DNA of 64,000 bases from Rhizobium sp. ICMP 5592 (lineage in GTDB: Bacteria > Pseudomonadota > Alphaproteobacteria > Rhizobiales > Rhizobiaceae): the NCBI RefSeq assembly GCF_009498525.1, contig NZ_QSNT01000002.1:372001-436000 (forward strand), read 5' to 3'. Shown piece by piece: positions 221 to 64,000 of the stretch. The translations under genes and the position numbers were made by a program. Positions within the stretch are counted from its first letter, which is position 1. Each line of letters begins with the position of its first letter. The notes under the pieces were generated by a model. It ran no database searches, was not told where the DNA came from, and saw nothing but the letters and a program-made list of their open reading frames with translations.

Positions 221-1129
221 TTAAGCGGTGGCCTCGACAACGCGCAGCGCCTTGGCGCGTTCCAGCGCGTCCTTCTGGACGGCTTCTTGGACCTTTTCGA
301 AGGCACGGACCTCGATCTGGCGAACGCGTTCGCGGCTGATGTCGAACTCGGACGAGAGATCTTCCAGGGTGACCGGATCTTCCGAGAGGCGACGCGCCTC
401 GAAGATGCGGCGTTCGCGGTCGTTCAGGACGCTCATGGCGCGGGCCAGCATGCGGCGGCGCGTATCCAGTTCGTCCTGCTCGATCAGCACGGCTTCCTGG
501 CTGTCGTGATCGTCCACCAGCCAATCCTGCCACTGGCCAGACTCGCCTTCGGAAGCCTTGATCGGCGCATTCAGCGAAGCGTCGCCCGAGAGGCGGCGGT
601 TCATCGAAATGACCTCTTCCTCGGAAACCTTCAGCTTGGTGGCGATCTCGGAGACATGCTCAGGCTTCAGGTCACCTTCATCGATGGCCTGGATACGGCC
701 CTTCAGGCGGCGCAGGTTGAAGAACAGGCGCTTCTGGTTAGCCGTCGTGCCCATCTTCACCAGCGACCACGAGCGCAGGATATATTCCTGGATCGAGGCC
801 TTGATCCACCACATGGCATAGGTCGCCAGGCGGAAACCGCGTTCCGGGTCGAATTTCTTGACAGCCTGCATCAGGCCGACATTGCCTTCGGAAACGACTT
901 CGCCGATCGGCAGGCCGTAGCCGCGGTAGCCCATGGCAATCTTCGCCACGAGGCGTAGATGGCTGGTGACGAGCCTGTGCGCCGCCTCACGGTCAGCGTG
1001 TTCCGCGTAGCGCTTGGCGAGCATATACTCTTCCTGCGGCTCCAGCATCGGGAACTTGCGGATCTCGTCGAGATAACGGTTAAGGCCGGCTTCACCGGCG
1101 GCAATGGACGGCAAGGTATTACGGGCCAT
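221..1129 (-). CDS. rpoH: RNA polymerase sigma-32 factor RpoH
   Basis: A 302-residue heat-shock sigma factor that directs RNA polymerase to chaperone and protease promoters. The N-terminal half shows sigma region 2, including the conserved stretch ending in ATYAMWWIKA and then IQEYILRSW. The C-terminal part has region 4 with the helix-turn-helix FDISRERVRQIE. The usual RpoH box between regions 2 and 3 (QKRLFFNLRR) is present, which separates it from RpoD. I chose the ATG at 1127-1129 because GGAGGG sits just upstream; a longer in-frame start to 1228 would place this ribosome site inside the gene. It lies downstream of rluD but has its own promoter. Rhizobia often carry two rpoH copies, and I cannot tell which one this is. 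Confidence 0.97.
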   Translation of the reverse strand: MARNTLPSIAAGEAGLNRYLDEIRKFPMLEPQEEYMLAKRYAEHADREAAHRLVTSHLRLVAKIAMGYRGYGLPIGEVVSEGNVGLMQAVKKFDPERGFRLATYAMWWIKASIQEYILRSWSLVKMGTTANQKRLFFNLRRLKGRIQAIDEGDLKPEHVSEIATKLKVSEEEVISMNRRLSGDASLNAPIKASEGESGQWQDWLVDDHDSQEAVLIEQDELDTRRRMLARAMSVLNDRERRIFEARRLSEDPVTLEDLSSEFDISRERVRQIEVRAFEKVQEAVQKDALERAKALRVVEATA

Positions 1130-1241
1130 GAATGTGCACCCTCCTATTCGAGATTTGGTCCCTTCTGGGGGCGTGTTGCACGCTCTTTGCGAAGCTGACC
1201 AAGGCGTGCAGGTCTGAAGACCCCGCACTAAACCAATATGT

Positions 1242-37997: not shown

Positions 37998-39707
37998 ATG
38001 TCCTACAAAATTTCCCGCGCCGCCTATGCCAACATGTTCGGGCCGACCACCGGCGACAAGGTGCGGCTTGCCGACACCGAGCTCTTCATCGAGGTTGAGA
38101 AGGATTTCACCACCTATGGCGAAGAGGTGAAGTTCGGCGGCGGCAAGGTCATTCGAGATGGCATGGGGCAGAGCCAGGTGACGCGGGCGAACGGCGCCGT
38201 CGATACCGTCATCACCAACGCGCTGATTATCGACACCTGGGGTATCGTCAAAGCCGATGTCGGCCTGAAGAACGGCCGCATCGCCGCGATCGGCAAGGCC
38301 GGTAATCCGGACACCCAGCCGGGGATCACGATCATCATCGGTCCTTCGACGGAAATCATTGCCGGCGAGGGCAAGATCCTGACTGCGGGGGGCATGGACG
38401 CGCATATCCACTTCATCTGCCCGCAGCAGATCGAGGAGGCACTGATGAGCGGCGTAACGACCATGCTCGGCGGCGGCTCCGGCCCTGCGCATGGCACGCT
38501 CGCCACCACCTGCACCGGTGCTTGGCATATCGAACGAATGATCGAAAGCTTCGATGCCTTTCCCATGAACCTCGCGCTTGCCGGAAAGGGGAACGCATCG
38601 CTGCCGGCTGCCCTTGAGGAAATGGTGCTGGCCGGCGCTTCTTCACTGAAGTTGCATGAGGATTGGGGCACGACGCCGGCGGCGATTGACTGCTGCCTGA
38701 GCGTCGCCGATGAGTATGACGTGCAGGTGATGATCCACACGGATACGTTGAATGAAAGCGGCTTCGTCGAGGATACGATCGGCGCCATCAAGGGCCGCAC
38801 CATCCACGCTTTTCATACCGAAGGTGCCGGTGGCGGCCATGCGCCCGATATCATCAAGATCTGCGGCCAGTCGAATGTCATCCCGTCGTCGACCAACCCG
38901 ACGCGACCCTATACGGTTAACACGATTGCCGAGCATCTCGACATGCTGATGGTCTGCCATCACCTGTCGCCGTCGATCCCGGAAGACATCGCCTTTGCCG
39001 AAAGCCGTATCCGTAAGGAGACGATCGCGGCGGAAGATATCCTCCACGATATCGGCGCATTCTCGATCATCTCCTCCGACAGCCAGGCCATGGGCCGCGT
39101 CGGCGAAGTGGCGATCCGTACCTGGCAGACTGCCGACAAGATGAAGCGCCAGCGCGGCCGTCTGGCCCAGGAAACCGGCGACAACGACAATTTCCGCGTC
39201 AAGCGTTACATCGCCAAATATACGATCAATCCGGCGATCGCCCAGGGCCTTAGCCATGAGATCGGCTCGATCGAAGTCGGCAAGCGCGCCGACCTGGTGA
39301 TCTGGAACCCGGCCTTCTTCGGGGTCAAGCCGGAAATGGTCCTGCTCGGCGGCTCGATCGCGGCTGCTCCCATGGGCGATCCGAATGCCTCGATCCCGAC
39401 GCCGCAGCCGATGCACTATCGTCCAATGTTTGCCGCACATGGCAAGCTGCGCACGAATTCTTCGGTCACCTTCGTATCGCAGGCCTCGCTCGATGCCGGT
39501 CTTGCCGGACGGCTTGGCGTCGCCAAGAAGCTCCTTGCGGTCAAGAATACCCGCGGCGGCATCTCCAAAGCGTCGATGATCCATAACAGCCTGACGCCGC
39601 ATATCGAGGTGGATCCGGAGACATACGAAGTGCGGGCCGACGGCGAGCTTCTGACCTGCGAGCCGGCGACGGTGCTGCCGATGGCGCAGCGCTACTTCCT
39701 GTTCTGA
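37998..39707 (+). CDS. ureC: Urease subunit alpha
   Basis: A 569-residue catalytic subunit that hydrolyses urea to ammonia and carbamate at a di-nickel site. The ligands are in place: His136 and His138 (AHIHF), the carbamylated lysine Lys218 (LKLHEDWG), His247 (IHTD) and His273 (FHTEGAGGG), plus the mobile flap MVCHHL near 320 and an Asp in SSDSQAMGR near 361. Length and ending (PMAQRYFLF) are standard. Confidence 0.98.
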
Positions 39708-58395: not shown

Positions 58396-59757
58396 TCAAG
58401 CGACGGCGGCGTTCGGCTGCGCAGAGGCAGCGAGCGCGTGGTTGATGGATTCGGCCGCGTCACGGCCCTGTGCGACTGCGGAAACCGTCAGATCGTCGCC
58501 GCCGAGCACGCAGTCGCCGCCGGCCCAAACGCCGTCGAGCGAGGTGCGGCCTTCGCCGTCGATGGCGATGCGGCTGGCTTCCATGCGCAAGGCGCCGAGG
58601 CCGGAAGCTTCGAAAGTCTGGCCGATCGCCTTGAAGATCTGGTCGGCGGCGATGACGCCGATGTCGCCGGTGCCGGTGAGCTTGCCGTCACGCAGTTCGG
58701 TATATTCGACCTCGATGCCGGCGACCTTGCCGTCCTTGTCGAGAATGCGCTTCGGAGCCAGCCAATGGCGGATCATAACGCCCTTGGAAGCGGCGAGATC
58801 CTGCTCGTACTCGGAAGCATTCATGTGCTCCTTGCCGCGGCGATAACAGATCGTTACCTCCTCGGCGCCGAGCAGCTTTGCCTGTACGGCGGCGTCGATG
58901 GCGGTCATGCCGCCGCCGAGAACGACGACGCGGCGGCCGATGGCGATATCGGCCTTGTCGCCCGCCTGCCGTAGGTCGGCGATATAGGCGACTGCATCGG
59001 CAACGCCGTCGAGATCTTCGCCTTCGGCGCGCAGCGCGTTGACGCCGGCAAGGCCGAGGCCGAGGAAGACGGCGTCATATTGCTGGGAGAGGTCGGACAG
59101 GCTGAAGTCACGGCCGAGCGCCTGGCCGTTTTTCACCTCGATACCGCCGATCGACAGCACGTAATCGACTTCCTTCTGGGCGAAATCGTCGACGGCCTTA
59201 TAGGTGGCGATGCCGTATTCGTTCAGGCCGCCGGCCTTTTCGCGGGCGTCGAAGATTACGACCTCATGGCCCTTCACCGCGAGGCGATGGGCGCAGGCGA
59301 GGCCAGCGGGACCAGCGCCGACGACTGCGATCTTCTTGCCGCTCGACGCGGCGCGAGCGTAGAACTGCTTGTTCTCCGCCATCGCTATATCGGTCGCGTA
59401 GCGCTGCAGGCGACCGATTTCGACCGGGCGCTCCTCGGCAGTGTTGCGCACGCAATCCTGCTCGCAGAGCTGTTCGGTGGGACAGACGCGGGCGCACATG
59501 CCGCCCAGAATGTTCTGGTCGAAGATCGTCTTCGCCGAGCCGATGGGATTGCCCGTCGAGATCTGGCGGATGAACAGCGGAATGTCGATGGAGGTGGGAC
59601 AGGCCGTCATGCACGGCGCGTCGTAGCAGAAATAACAGCGGTCGGCAGCGACCAGCGCCTCGTGATCGTTCAGGCGCGGATGAAGATCGGAGAAGTTCGC
59701 ATCATACTCGGCAGGCGTCAGCCGGCCTTTATGAATCCCTGTTTCCAGTCGTCCCAT
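58396..59757 (-). CDS. preT: NAD-dependent dihydropyrimidine dehydrogenase subunit PreT
   Basis: A 453-residue GltD-like subunit. Its N-terminal Fe-S region has cysteines in CYFCYDAPCMTACPTSIDIP and GGMCARVCPTEQLCEQDCVR. The FAD site is VVGAGPAGLACAHRL and the NAD(P) site is VVVLGGGMTAID. It passes electrons from NADH through FAD and Fe-S clusters to PreA. First gene of preTA; its promoter region contains a repeated CAAACGGTAA motif. Confidence 0.95.
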   Translation of the reverse strand: MGRLETGIHKGRLTPAEYDANFSDLHPRLNDHEALVAADRCYFCYDAPCMTACPTSIDIPLFIRQISTGNPIGSAKTIFDQNILGGMCARVCPTEQLCEQDCVRNTAEERPVEIGRLQRYATDIAMAENKQFYARAASSGKKIAVVGAGPAGLACAHRLAVKGHEVVIFDAREKAGGLNEYGIATYKAVDDFAQKEVDYVLSIGGIEVKNGQALGRDFSLSDLSQQYDAVFLGLGLAGVNALRAEGEDLDGVADAVAYIADLRQAGDKADIAIGRRVVVLGGGMTAIDAAVQAKLLGAEEVTICYRRGKEHMNASEYEQDLAASKGVMIRHWLAPKRILDKDGKVAGIEVEYTELRDGKLTGTGDIGVIAADQIFKAIGQTFEASGLGALRMEASRIAIDGEGRTSLDGVWAGGDCVLGGDDLTVSAVAQGRDAAESINHALAASAQPNAAVA

Positions 59758-60088: not shown

Positions 60089-60113
60089 GGAACCAAGGCC
60101 CGGCGCCGTCGTT
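60089..60113 (+). promoter_or_regulatory. EcfG-type (general stress) promoter of an intergenic transcript
   Basis: GGAAC, sixteen bases, then CGTT: an exact match to the EcfG/RpoE2 consensus GGAAC-N16/17-CGTT. Transcription would start near 60120. Confidence 0.75.
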
Positions 60114-60119
60114 TAGAGA

Positions 60120-60240
60120 GTGCTTGGTGATGAGTGCATTAGTTGATGCAGGCCCCCAACATCGTTACCGGGCAACTACTCACGGTCCCCTCCCGATGAG
60201 TGAAAAGCAGCCAGTGCGCCGCCCTCGCACTGGCTGTTTT
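60120..60240 (+). ncRNA. Candidate stress-induced small RNA (possibly GsrN counterpart)
   Basis: About 120 bases between the EcfG promoter and a strong terminator (60208-60240). The body has C-rich single-strand candidates at 60153-60157 (five C) and 60187-60194 (CCCCTCCC). TAGTTG can pair with CAACTA to close a stem around the first of these. Both flanking genes are on the opposite strand, so it is a free-standing unit. A short open frame exists but has no ribosome site and crosses the terminator. GsrN of Caulobacter is an EcfG/SigT-dependent sRNA with a C-rich loop, which motivates the comparison; homology is not shown here. Confidence 0.6.
60208..60240 (+). terminator. Rho-independent terminator of the candidate sRNA
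   Basis: CAGCCAGTGCG and CGCACTGGCTG form a perfect 11-bp stem, a 7-base loop lies between them, and TTTT follows. No protein gene on the plus strand precedes it in the 508-base gap 59758-60265. Confidence 0.85.
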
Positions 60241-60265
60241 CGGTTGCGTTCTTCACACGCGCCGT

Positions 60266-61360
60266 TCAGCCACGGCGGAGGATTTCGTATTCGGTTTCCG
60301 GGATGGTCAGACGATAGCCGATGCTGTCGTCGCCGATGGAGAAATCGGCGCGACCGTTCATGGAGCTCGGCACCACGCGCTCAAGCACGGTGCGGCTGAA
60401 GCTGTTATCTTCGAATTCGTGGTCCGCGGGGAAATAGAAACGCTCCGACCAGGTGACCTCGATCGCTCTCTTGCCGTCGAGTTCGGATTCCTTGCAATTC
60501 AGCGTGATGCTGGTGGCCCCGGCCGAAATGGCGCCGTGCGAAGCGGAGTTGACGATCAGCTCGTGCAGGGCAAGGCCGAGATGCACGGCGGCATTCGGCG
60601 TCAGATGCGCGTTGATCCCGTAGATCGGCATGGGCACACCGGCATCGGGCCAGTAGGGGGCGAATTGCTTTTCGGCGAGTTCGAACAGATAGGCGCCGCG
60701 CCAGCTGGAATCGGTGATCAGGTCCTGGGAATTCGACAGCGATTGCAGGCGACCGCGGAACTTGATCAGGAAGTTTTCGATCGTCAGCGTATGGCGGGCC
60801 GTCTGCGTGGCAATACCCTGGATGATCGCCAGAAGGTTCTTGGAGCGATGCGAGAGCTCGCGCAGCAGCGATTTCAGCACCTTTTCGCGATGGCGGGTCT
60901 CGGTGACCTCGGAGATGACGGAGAGCAGGCCCTGCGGCTTGCGCGCGCCTATGCGCTCGATCTTCAGCTCGTAGACGCGCACGCCGTCGCCGGTTGGAAG
61001 CTCCACTTCCGCGCTGGCGGACTTGCCGCTTTCCAGCACGCCGCGCTTTAGCTGCAGCAGGTGCGCGCCATCCTTCTCGCCGAAGAGGTGCAGATCGGTG
61101 CCGCCGATGATCAGGGATGGTTTCAGGTGGTCGGGCAGGTTTTCGGCATAGCGAATCGCAAGGGTCGTATCCTGAAAGAGGATCGAAATGCCGGCGCTTC
61201 CGAGCGCCCGCTCCATCATAGCGGCCTTGCCTTCAAAACTCAAAGGCGCGCCGGACAATGGTTCAGTCGTATTCACCGGTTTGCCTTTCACTCGAATTTC
61301 GAGAGCCCCGCCGACAGGGCATTCTCGGCCGGAAGAACTCGGTCCGGTCCATACATTCAC
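60266..61360 (-). CDS. HWE-family sensor histidine kinase of the general stress response
   Basis: A 364-residue soluble kinase. A PAS-like sensor occupies about 45-155. The HWE dimerisation/phosphorylation region follows (LRELSHRSKNLLAIIQGIATQTARH, His171), then ALHELIVNSASHGA as the N-box and VTWSER with the W-x-E motif that names the family. HWE/HisKA_2 kinases beside phyR phosphorylate PhyR. The start at ATG 61360 gives a leader of about 30 bases from its own EcfG promoter. The first 40 residues are of low complexity, so a later start (near residue 30) is possible. The C-terminal ATP-lid region is short, as is usual for HWE. Confidence 0.9.
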   Translation of the reverse strand: MNVWTGPSSSGRECPVGGALEIRVKGKPVNTTEPLSGAPLSFEGKAAMMERALGSAGISILFQDTTLAIRYAENLPDHLKPSLIIGGTDLHLFGEKDGAHLLQLKRGVLESGKSASAEVELPTGDGVRVYELKIERIGARKPQGLLSVISEVTETRHREKVLKSLLRELSHRSKNLLAIIQGIATQTARHTLTIENFLIKFRGRLQSLSNSQDLITDSSWRGAYLFELAEKQFAPYWPDAGVPMPIYGINAHLTPNAAVHLGLALHELIVNSASHGAISAGATSITLNCKESELDGKRAIEVTWSERFYFPADHEFEDNSFSRTVLERVVPSSMNGRADFSIGDDSIGYRLTIPETEYEILRRG

Positions 61361-61398: not shown

Positions 61399-61423
61399 AA
61401 CGTTCGGTTGCTATCTTTGTTCC
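61399..61423 (-). promoter_or_regulatory. EcfG-type promoter of the HWE kinase gene
   Basis: On the minus strand GGAAC, sixteen bases, then CGTT, an exact consensus match lying 39 bases upstream of the kinase start. The kinase should therefore be induced by the sigma factor it helps to release (positive feedback). It overlaps the intergenic end of phyR. Confidence 0.8.
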
Positions 61424-61444: not shown

Positions 61445-62239
61445 TCAGGCGGCCACCTTTGTGGTTTCGTTGAAGAAAAGCGCCTGGCTGATCAGGGCTT
61501 TCACCATGTCCGGATTGAACGGCTTGGTGACGAGGAAGGTCGGCTCGGGGCGTTCGCCGGTCAGCAGACGCTCCGGGAAAGCGGTGATGAAAATGACCGG
61601 GATGCTCGATGTCTTGAGGATGTCGTTGACGGCGTCGATGCCGGAGCTGCCGTCGGCAAGCTGAATGTCGGCAAGCACCATGCTGGGCTTGGTCGCATTG
61701 TGCAGGGCGACAGCTTCCGCATGGGTACGGGCGATGCCGGTCACGCGATGTCCGAGGCTTTCCACCATCTGCTCGATATCCATCGCGATCAGTGGCTCGT
61801 CCTCGATGATCATGATATCGGTGGCGACCTGGCGTGAAATCTCCTGCGACGCCTTGTCGAGCAGGCTCATGGCCTCGGTTTCCGACACCTCGAGAATATT
61901 GGCGATCTCGCCAAGGCGAAAGTTTTCGACGGAGGCCAGAAGGAAGGCCTGACGGGCGATCGGCGACACCTTTGCGAGGTTTATCGAAGCACGCTGCTCC
62001 CAGGCATAGGGCGACGTCGGTTCTGGGATCTGGATCGCCGAGGTACCGAAGAGCTTGGTGAAGAGCTTATAAAGGGCGAGTCGATCGTTGGATGTTTCCG
62101 GAAAGATGGAGAGATCGCTGATGATCGCTTCGAGGACCGCTGCGACATAAGCGTCTCCCGAAGTCTGTGTCCCGGTCAACGCGCGGGAGTAGCGGCGCAA
62201 GTACGGAAGATGCGGCGCAATGCGTGTGGAAAGTGTCAT
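61445..62239 (-). CDS. phyR: General stress response regulator PhyR
   Basis: A 264-residue protein with an N-terminal sigma-factor-like domain (about 1-135; sigma2/sigma4 mimic) and a C-terminal receiver (about 140-258). The receiver has ED at 146-147, phosphoacceptor Asp191 (VLADIQLADG) and VTKPF with the conserved Lys. When phosphorylated, PhyR binds the anti-sigma NepR and frees EcfG. GGGAG precedes the ATG at 62239; an upstream in-frame start at 62263 is less likely. It is divergent from nepR. Confidence 0.97.
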   Translation of the reverse strand: MTLSTRIAPHLPYLRRYSRALTGTQTSGDAYVAAVLEAIISDLSIFPETSNDRLALYKLFTKLFGTSAIQIPEPTSPYAWEQRASINLAKVSPIARQAFLLASVENFRLGEIANILEVSETEAMSLLDKASQEISRQVATDIMIIEDEPLIAMDIEQMVESLGHRVTGIARTHAEAVALHNATKPSMVLADIQLADGSSGIDAVNDILKTSSIPVIFITAFPERLLTGERPEPTFLVTKPFNPDMVKALISQALFFNETTKVAA

Positions 62240-62304: not shown

Positions 62305-62329
62305 AACGCCAGTTTGGTAAAAAAGTTCC
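62305..62329 (-). promoter_or_regulatory. EcfG-type promoter of phyR
   Basis: On the minus strand GGAAC, TTTTTT and ten more bases (N16), then CGTT. Exact consensus, 66 bases upstream of the phyR start. Its -35 element is eight bases from that of the divergent nepR promoter. Confidence 0.85.
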
Positions 62330-62484: not shown

Positions 62485-62712
62485 ATGCGGAAGCGAGCAG
62501 GCCAAATGACCACCCAAAATCAAGAGGAAGCGGACCGGAACCGCGCTGATCTGCGCGCTGCCGATATCCTCGATCCCAACAATCAGATCGGCAACCGGCT
62601 ACGCTCCTTCTACGCCGCGGTGCAGGATGAGGCTATCCCCGATCGCTTTCTCGACCTGCTCGAGAAACTGGATCAGGTTGAACGCTTGGCTTCCGCAAAA
62701 GTCTCCGATTGA
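62485..62712 (+). CDS. nepR: Anti-sigma factor NepR
   Basis: A 75-residue helical protein with the NepR signature IGNRLRSFYAAVQDEAIPDRFLDLLEKLD. It holds EcfG until displaced by phosphorylated PhyR. An in-frame ATG at 62506 (68 residues) is a fair alternative start; the upstream ribosome sites are both weak. The coding end overlaps the region of the ecfG ribosome site (GAGGGG at 62711-62716), so the two are coupled. Confidence 0.93.
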   Translation: MRKRAGQMTTQNQEEADRNRADLRAADILDPNNQIGNRLRSFYAAVQDEAIPDRFLDLLEKLDQVERLASAKVSD

Positions 62713-62723
62713 GGGGAAGCATC

Positions 62724-63275
62724 ATGGAACAGCAACCGAGCTTCAAACGCGAACTTCTGGCTGCCCTACCGAGCCTCCGTGCCTTCGCCATTTCGCTCAC
62801 CGGCCGTCATGACCGGGCCGATGATCTCGTGCAGGACACGATCATGAAAGCCTGGGCGAAGCAGGATCATTTCGAGATGGGCACGAACATGAAGGCCTGG
62901 CTCTTCACCATCCTGCGCAACGAGCTCTACAGCCAGATGCGCAAGAGCGGCCGCGAGGTGCAGGACAGTGACGGCCTCTTCACCGAATCGATGGCGACGC
63001 ATCCGTCGCAATATGGCGCACTCGACCTGCAGGATTTCCGCAAGGCGCTCGATCAGCTGCCGCCCGATCAGCGCGAAGCCATCATCCTCGTCGGCGCTTC
63101 CGGTTTTTCCTATGAGGAAGCCGCCGAGATCTGCGGTTGCGCTGTCGGCACCATCAAGAGCCGCGTCAACCGTGCGCGCCAGCGGCTGCAGGAAGTGCTG
63201 CAGATTTCGGGAGAAGCGGATTTCGGCCCCGACGCCACGTCCGCGCCGCTGACCTCCAAGGCGTTTGCTTTCTGA
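62724..63275 (+). CDS. ecfG: ECF sigma factor EcfG (general stress response)
   Basis: A 183-residue ECF15-type sigma factor. Region 2 is LTGRHDRADDLVQDTIMKAWAKQDHF and MKAWLFTILRNELYSQMRK; region 4 is LDQLPPDQREAIILVGASGFSYEEAAEICGCAVGTIKSRVNRARQRL. It starts at the ATG 62724 after GAGGGG. It directs transcription of stress genes from GGAAC-N16-CGTT promoters, of which four lie in this locus. A short C-terminal tail of about 25 residues follows region 4. Confidence 0.96.
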   Translation: MEQQPSFKRELLAALPSLRAFAISLTGRHDRADDLVQDTIMKAWAKQDHFEMGTNMKAWLFTILRNELYSQMRKSGREVQDSDGLFTESMATHPSQYGALDLQDFRKALDQLPPDQREAIILVGASGFSYEEAAEICGCAVGTIKSRVNRARQRLQEVLQISGEADFGPDATSAPLTSKAFAF

Positions 63276-63374: not shown

Positions 63375-63779
63375 TCAATCATCCCGTTTCTTCGTTCCAA
63401 CCAGGTTGCCGAACACCAGCGCCGTCGCGATGGCGGCCGTCAGCAGCGGCTGGGTCTTTGCAAGTCCGAGCGCGGCAACTGCCATGGTCTCCAGGGAGGC
63501 GCGGCGTTCACGGGCACGGCGCTCCTCCTGCTTGTTGAGGATCGCCATGATAACCAGGACGATCAATCCGAGCAGTAGCGCGCCTGCGGCGAGCAGCAGC
63601 GCCGAGATGGCGGCACCATAGATAGTGGCAAGCCAGATGGCGGCGGCCACCAATGCGAAGCCATAGGCCGTGAGAAGAAGGATCGCGGCGATGGCGACGA
63701 AAATACCGTTGCGCTTGGTGCGCGCAACGGTACGGTTCAGTGTGCCTGACATCAACAGGCCGAGGATTGGAGCGAGCAT
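63375..63779 (-). CDS. Small membrane protein (phage-holin/DUF1469-like)
   Basis: A 134-residue protein with two long hydrophobic segments (about 28-50 and 55-80) and a third near the C-terminus (about 112-127), with a basic stretch of RERRAR-type between them. It resembles the holin-superfamily or DUF1469 membrane proteins that often accompany YqjD/ElaB-like proteins. Such pairs are frequent EcfG targets. The start of its unit is beyond the window's right edge. Confidence 0.7.
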   Translation of the reverse strand: MLAPILGLLMSGTLNRTVARTKRNGIFVAIAAILLLTAYGFALVAAAIWLATIYGAAISALLLAAGALLLGLIVLVIMAILNKQEERRARERRASLETMAVAALGLAKTQPLLTAAIATALVFGNLVGTKKRDD

Positions 63780-63788
63780 CGCGGCTCC

Positions 63789-64000
63789 TTAGCGGCGGGA
63801 CAGAAGCAGGGCGATTGCTAAGCCGAAGACGGCCGCGGCCCCGATGGTTGCGACTGGATGCTGCCGGACGGTCCTGCGCACTTCGCGCGAACCCTTGGCG
63901 TAACCGTGCTGGAGCTCGCGCAGCAGTTCTTCGCCGCGCGCCGTCAGATCTTCCAAGCCGGTTTCGGCGCGGGCACGCATCGTTTCGCCCTGCTTGGCGC
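63789..64000 (-). CDS. ElaB/YqjD-like (DUF883) protein, partial
   Basis: The C-terminal part of a protein whose beginning lies outside the window. The visible part has a helical, charged segment (LEDLTARGEELLRELQHGYAKGSREVRRTVRQHP) and ends with the family's membrane anchor and dibasic tail (VFGLAIALLLSRR). The family comprises inner-membrane, ribosome-associated or stress-induced proteins. The reading frame remains open to base 64000, so the internal ATG at 63980 need not be the start. Nine bases separate it from the holin-like gene. Confidence 0.75.
   Translation of the reverse strand, partial: AKQGETMRARAETGLEDLTARGEELLRELQHGYAKGSREVRRTVRQHPVATIGAAAVFGLAIALLLSRR

Follow-up and report, generated by a model that had tools for sequence, protein, structure and literature searches.

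Between a reductase gene and a histidine kinase gene of Rhizobium sp. ICMP 5592, beside the general stress response (GSR) locus, lies a short interval that a first-pass annotation had singled out as the site of a candidate small RNA driven by the stress sigma factor EcfG. Does this interval hold a free-standing sRNA gene, and if it does, is the RNA a rhizobial counterpart of Caulobacter GsrN or something unrelated? We analysed a stretch of 64,000 nucleotides around it (the window) together with the corresponding loci of related genomes. We think it likely that the interval is a free-standing gene for a trans-acting GSR sRNA, orthologous to ReC64 of Rhizobium etli and acting by the mechanism that we propose below.

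Promoter, neighbours and fold of the RNA

The promoter that the first-pass annotation had called perfect is an exact match to the EcfG-type motif GGAAC-N16-CGTT, at 60089-60113 on the plus strand. The window contains four such sites, compared with a shuffle mean of 0.56 (none of 100 shuffles reached four), and zero sites with an N17 spacer. Three of the four fall at the GSR locus, which is laid out as follows.

58396-59757, minus strand: reductase gene with Fer4_20 and Pyr_redox_2 domains, one flank of the RNA
60120-60242, plus strand: sRNA of ~122 nt, its start taken from the promoter and its end from the terminator
60266-61360, minus strand: HWE histidine kinase gene in the TcrY position (PF07536, 76.8 bits)
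61399-61423, minus strand: EcfG-type site ahead of the kinase gene, exact match
61445-62236, minus strand: phyR (PF22029, PF22233, PF00072)
62305-62329, minus strand: EcfG-type site ahead of phyR, exact match
62485-62712, plus strand: nepR (PF18557)
62709-63275, plus strand: ecfG (PF08281, PF04542)

By these domain matches the kinase gene, phyR, nepR and ecfG do adjoin the interval, and both of its neighbours lie on the opposite strand, as the annotation had it. Because exact EcfG sites also stand ahead of the kinase gene and phyR, the GSR locus appears to be self-regulated. Over 182 aa the EcfG encoded here shares 96.7% identity with the one that adjoins the RNA in strain 3841. The remaining exact site, at 239-263 (minus strand), is probably a chance occurrence; it sits within a long same-strand reading frame (221-1228, minus strand).

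With a start predicted from the promoter at ~60119-60121, the RNA is a structured unit close to the 120 bases first proposed. The sequence 60119-60242 folds at -55.1 kcal/mol, versus a shuffle mean of -36.6 (sd 3.7; z -4.98), and none of 200 shuffles folds as low. R1, a covariance model built from 28 genus sequences with this one among them, matches 60117-60242 (G000:C12:432117-432242) with 119 bits. The fold has the following parts.

60121-60174, plus strand: domain 1, which encloses the inner hairpin and C-rich site 1
60121-60133/60162-60174, plus strand: outer 13-bp stem of domain 1, from the minimum-energy fold
60135-60150, plus strand: inner hairpin of domain 1, loop AGUU here and a C-rich loop in most relatives
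60153-60157, plus strand: C-rich site 1, CCCCC, unpaired or weakly paired
60177-60202, plus strand: hairpin 2, loop UCCCCUC, from the fold
60186-60194, plus strand: C-rich site 2, TCCCCTCCC, which includes CCUCC
60204-60240, plus strand: terminator hairpin, from the fold
60219-60225, plus strand: terminator loop CCGCCCT, the third C-rich loop

The two C-rich stretches of the first-pass annotation are where it had placed them, CCCCC at 60153-60157 and CCCCTCCC at 60187-60194. The inner-hairpin loop of the window RNA is without its C-run (AGUU), with the neighbouring strand still reading CCCCC. The strong terminator that had been claimed holds in part: the hairpin is strong, but four T alone follow it on the plus strand (GTTTTCGG), and a simple terminator scan listed it for the minus strand only, so that it may serve to terminate the convergent kinase transcript as well. 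The minus-strand listing, together with the mere 25 bases between the RNA 3' end and the kinase gene, would suit a reading of the interval as a cis element only, that is, the bidirectional terminator and 3' region of the kinase gene that has no trans role; the comparative evidence given below bears on this.

A search of Rfam 15 at gathering and permissive thresholds placed no family on the RNA (best chance match 12.7 bits, threshold 55). Elsewhere in the window, Rfam's 5_ureB_sRNA matched 38150-38439 (minus strand) with 108 bits, antisense to the start of an apparent urease alpha-subunit gene (37999 on, plus strand; named by eye). This match probably reflects coding conservation rather than an sRNA.

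Conservation and covariation

By blastn, the RNA is present in all 37 same-genus genomes (its own included) and in none of 24 genomes from other families. Upstream of the genus orthologues GGAAC-N16 is followed by CGTT (33/37) or AGTT (4/37), and the co-occurrence of RNA and GGAAC-N16-[C/A]GTT in 37 of 37 genomes is not chance. The loop-2 sequence CGGTCCCCTCCCG is invariant across all 37. The first-pass annotation had named failure to align among close relatives as grounds for dropping the idea; the region aligns. We also scanned named genomes with a hairpin-2 pattern, which returned 105 stretches, the 80 matches listed being titled Rhizobium or 'Rhizobiales bacterium'. Among the matches listed, GGAAC-N16-[C/A]GTT precedes the RNA in all 78 that have enough upstream sequence (69 C, 9 A), and a kinase gene match is found in 80 of 80 stretches, with phyR also within the stretch in 66; since the loop was the search criterion, independent evidence comes only from the promoter and the neighbouring genes.

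For covariation within the genus we used a plain alignment (A1) of 28 of the 37 sequences, the nine omitted being identical copies. The outer stem and the inner hairpin appear in the minimum-energy fold of each of the 28 distinct RNAs, and hairpin 2 is absent from a single one (L037, given with a longer 3' tail). Both sides are changed in six of the 12 outer-stem pairs, and both-side-changed cells number 40, as against 16.5 in shuffles. Further pair types in A1 do not exceed shuffles (336 of 500 shuffles reach the count). RNAalifold run on A1 missed the outer stem, which we placed by hand from the single folds, and gave just two pairs with both sides changed.

The same 28 RNAs bear on whether the interval encodes a small peptide instead. 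In some species ATG codons near the 5' end do open frames as long as ~40 codons, yet these frames vary in phase and length among species, stop at differing places and reach the invariant loop in any of the three phases, and one of the 28 RNAs is without an ATG in its first 30 nt; the stems, moreover, covary as RNA. No conserved peptide was found in the 28 distinct genus RNAs, in line with the earlier claim that no gene led by a ribosome site lies between promoter and terminator. We rejected a peptide gene on these grounds and give it next to no probability.

Beyond the genus, we searched 297 genomes of the family with R1 and with a second covariance model, R2, made from 39 sequences; 25 of these come from other genera and so match R2 by construction. 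R1 gave 42 genomes, four of which were weak and left out (G142, G161, G336, G354), and R2 gave 45, of which seven with E > 1e-4 were left out. The two models then agree on the same 38 of 297 genomes, in 13 genera, with E <= 3.2e-9 for R2. All 25 extra-genus loci that we inspected (L043-L067) adjoin GSR-locus genes, to which R1 is blind: PhyR is near the RNA in 22, and in L047, L048 and L050 the kinase alone is near it, at 46 to 61% identity. GGAAC stands upstream of the RNA in 25 of 25, followed at 16 or 17 bases by a strict CGTT in 12 and by GTGTT, GCATT or similar in the rest. At L056 and L059-L067 the RNA adjoins phyR, and the stretch has no kinase match.

An order-wide R1 search returned 10 of 297 genomes at E <= 0.1, four of them belonging to the genus. 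The six matches outside the family (L068-L073) have none of the five marker genes in their stretches and look terminator-only or chance, and we discarded them. At 27 other loci of the class beside PhyR, R2 gave nothing but two terminator-like matches in one locus (E 2.5 and 3.1). The R1 and R2 searches thus produced no credible match outside the family, and absence from a genome search is weak evidence because 11 candidates are scored per genome. Judged from its distribution, the RNA is older than the genus.

The family alignment (A3) extends the covariation. Of its 39 pairs, 32 show changes in both partners, including 12 of 12 in the outer stem, and each of the eight modelled pairs of hairpin 2 does so somewhere. 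Cells changed on both sides number 225, where shuffles give 69 and slid controls never more than 39; this count is favoured by the fitting of A3 to the structure. C-runs of four or more recur at three places: of the 39 family sequences, 38 have one where domain 1 is unpaired (shuffle mean 4.5, maximum 12), all 39 have one in loop 2 (mean 2.5, maximum 8) and 14 have one in the terminator loop (mean 1.6, maximum 6). These counts are favoured in turn, because the model used to find the A3 members itself contains the C-runs. Conservation of the two C-rich loops in related genomes, proposed at the outset as a check, was found in both, and the comparison supports the view that the stems of the family covary while its C-rich loops persist.

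We can now return to a purely cis-acting element. It does not account for a promoter of the RNA's own that every one of the 37 genus genomes has kept, for stems that covary and loops that persist well away from the terminator, or for the loci L056 and L059-L067, where the RNA lies beside phyR and the stretch holds no kinase match. In R. etli, moreover, ReC64 is described as a separate transcript (PMC3892343, PMC2881028). We consider the cis-only reading very improbable and keep to that of a free-standing sRNA gene.

Relation to ReC64 and GsrN

The window-type RNA is contained in locus L148 of Rhizobium johnstonii 3841, which we take to be the same strain as R. leguminosarum bv. viciae 3841. 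According to Jans 2013 (PMC3892343), ReC64 of R. etli CFN42 is intergenic, lies downstream of tcrY and has an EcfG1 consensus promoter; its 5' end by 5' RACE falls where expected, and it is conserved in R. leguminosarum bv. viciae 3841. The same paper reports that its reporter is abolished in an ecfG1 mutant, with 82% remaining without ecfG2, and that EcfG1 and EcfG2 switch on the reporter in E. coli. ReC64 was also detected by Northern blot, along with a larger band that is left unexplained (Vercruysse 2010, PMC2881028). An RNA-seq study (PMC4167512) found it to be up in saline shock; the promoters predicted there are those of SigA and RpoH, which counts against the EcfG reading.

The window RNA occupies the same place, in the intergenic space that follows the tcrY kinase gene within the phyR-ecfG1 region, it has an exact EcfG consensus promoter ahead of it, and it is kept in strain 3841, at L148. 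By position, promoter type and conservation in 3841, it is very probably the orthologue of ReC64, and its gene is very probably one that the bacteria turn on in stress. Conservation, covariation and the published RNA at the same place together lend strong support to the sRNA part of the original proposal. The two differ in length: ReC64 is given as 88 nt (PMC3892343), whereas the promoter-to-terminator unit here is ~122 nt. By hand count, 88 nt from the start would stop just past hairpin 2, in the linker ahead of the terminator. The 88-nt ReC64 could have arisen from the ~122-nt unit by processing, as a 5' fragment comparable to the 5' isoform of GsrN, and the larger Northern band could be the full-length RNA. 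Compared with the ReC64 literature, what is new is the family distribution, the covariation, the three-loop anatomy and this suggested reading of the 88-nt species as a fragment; in the open-licence literature, subscription papers being outside our reach, we found no family-wide model or target study of the RNA.

A link to GsrN had also been made before. In Tien et al. 2018 (PMC5869019), GsrN homologues are predicted in R. etli, S. meliloti and Brucella on the basis of expression, place and promoter, and the R. etli RNA had already been put forward as one. For comparison we recovered gsrN-like RNAs without the use of annotation; 13 of 32 Caulobacteraceae loci have one next to phyR. A further one was found by pattern at L243:1485-1606, in a genome that we take to be C. 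crescentus from its PhyR, which shows 100% identity to PDB 3n0r over 256 aa. Across 12 aligned Caulobacteraceae gsrN-like loci CCCCCCCGACTTGAG is invariant, and the C. crescentus-like L243 has six C. The L243 motif CGCCCCCCGACUUGA is complementary to sites such as UCGGGGGGCG and UCAAGUCGGGGC, both among the interacting sites in Table 1 of Tien et al. (PMC5869019), and for this reason we treat the Caulobacteraceae RNAs as gsrN.

In regulation and layout the window RNA resembles GsrN. Each has a promoter for the general stress sigma factor (SigT/EcfG; the C. crescentus site is GGAACCAAGGGACGGGGCGGTCGTT), a usual place at the GSR locus, a terminator, and a long stem at the 5' end within which lie a C-run and a small hairpin; the C-rich unpaired loop in the 5' domain of GsrN has its equivalent in the window RNA. 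These likenesses, the position of gsrN next to phyR in the 13 Caulobacteraceae loci and the earlier suggestion of Tien et al. (PMC5869019) would all fit a single ancestral alphaproteobacterial GSR-locus sRNA that has diverged beyond recognition. The details of the fold speak against this: in gsrN the C-run comes before the inner hairpin, whereas in the family of the window RNA it comes after that hairpin or in its loop, and gsrN is without hairpin 2, the extra C-rich hairpin of the Rhizobiaceae RNA. So do the covariance models, which fail in both directions. R3, a model of gsrN for which the held-out C. crescentus-like gsrN served as positive control, gave that control 115 bits and the Rhizobiaceae RNAs at most 13.4 bits (noise up to 19.2). 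R2 gave at most 15.2 bits on gsrN sites (noise up to 18.5) and 13.2 bits on the C. crescentus-like locus (noise 14.6), and its search of 27 other class loci beside PhyR, given above, fits no better with common ancestry. The covariance search with GsrN and alphaproteobacterial sRNA families that the first-pass annotation had called for gave no match, with R2 and R3 below noise and Rfam below thresholds. Its alternative of a GsrN counterpart or an unrelated RNA comes out divided: promoter type, position and the C-rich-loop design fit GsrN, but the covariance models do not demonstrate common descent, which we regard as possible and rather doubtful.

Other known sRNAs offer a different comparison. 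Bsr6 of Brucella abortus, which we liken by description only, is an sRNA that requires the general stress sigma factor RpoE1 and has a consensus box (PMC12772402). The SmelA075 and SmelA099 families of Rhizobiales carry the motif CCUCCUCCC in hairpin loops and, like the window RNA, have several hairpins with C-rich, ribosome-site-like loops in one RNA (PMC3927594). The window loop is UCCCCUCCC, not CCUCCUCCC, and the window RNA is bound to one locus and one promoter type.

Proposed mechanism, candidate targets and meaning

Stress frees EcfG through PhyR and NepR, an established pathway, and in our proposal it is this release that would start the sequence of events. EcfG would then transcribe the RNA from the site at 60089, as others have found for ReC64 and as the shared motif and place would predict here. 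The transcript would form three hairpin domains that display C-rich loops, a step backed by covariation and loop conservation. By base pairing with G-rich or Shine-Dalgarno-like sequences in target mRNAs, the loops may alter the translation or stability of these messages, probably with Hfq taking part, to judge from GsrN and the anti-SD sRNAs. A cleavage site probably lies between hairpin 2 and the terminator, and cutting there would leave a 5' fragment of the kind that the 88-nt ReC64 suggests. Its most likely function would be that of a trans-acting GSR riboregulator whose C-rich loops pair with such mRNA sites.

The direction of its effect could go either way. CCUCC is the anti-SD core, and because loop 2 holds it, translational repression is as likely as activation of the GsrN type. 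The RNA could be a GSR sRNA of independent origin whose chief role is anti-Shine-Dalgarno repression, as with the Rhizobiales sRNAs that carry CCUCCUCCC. CCUCC is in loop 2 throughout the genus and in several other genera, and the multiple C-rich hairpin loops per RNA recall SmelA075 and SmelA099 (PMC3927594). The exact motif CCUCCUCCC, however, is absent from the hairpins of the window RNA, other genera often have CCCCCUC in loop 2 without CCUCC, and loop-2 complements are not enriched: the own genome has 161 against 229 control sites, so that they are rarer than the control. Near-complements of loop 2 with one mismatch (four sites inspected) were uninformative. A chiefly repressive anti-SD role is, on this evidence, conceivable, and we would not favour it.

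As for individual targets, the leader of a small membrane-protein gene near ecfG (63375-63779, minus strand; weak holin superfamily III match below cut-off) ranks 5 and 3 of 55 in pairing with loops 1 and 2, and we list this gene as a candidate target. A DUF883_C gene lies at 63789-63980 (minus strand), also near ecfG. In the same crude test for pairing of the GsrN type, the katG leader of this genome ranked 55 and 38 of 55, a poor match, and katG as a target in common with GsrN is unsupported. In three genus genomes (L255, L257 and L259) a G-rich stretch GGGAGAGAGTGGGGC, noted by eye and absent from the own genome, lies ~60-75 nt ahead of katG and could pair with C-rich site 1 there.

It is tempting to ask whether the job of GsrN was invented a second time. 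On this account a three-loop, C-rich reader of G-tracts would have become fixed at the GSR locus throughout the Rhizobiaceae, promoter, place and C-run would be convergent, and the CCUCC hairpin would reset ribosome access under stress. We offer it tentatively, as a speculation that we do not expect to hold in full.

Of the post-transcriptional arm of the alphaproteobacterial GSR, we found detailed knowledge for Caulobacter GsrN alone. A conserved RNA with an EcfG-type promoter that recurs at the GSR locus across 13 or more genera of a single family amounts to a defined family backed by covariation, and it offers obvious loop mutants for symbionts and soil bacteria. With it, whether the post-transcriptional arm of the GSR was inherited once or invented twice becomes testable.
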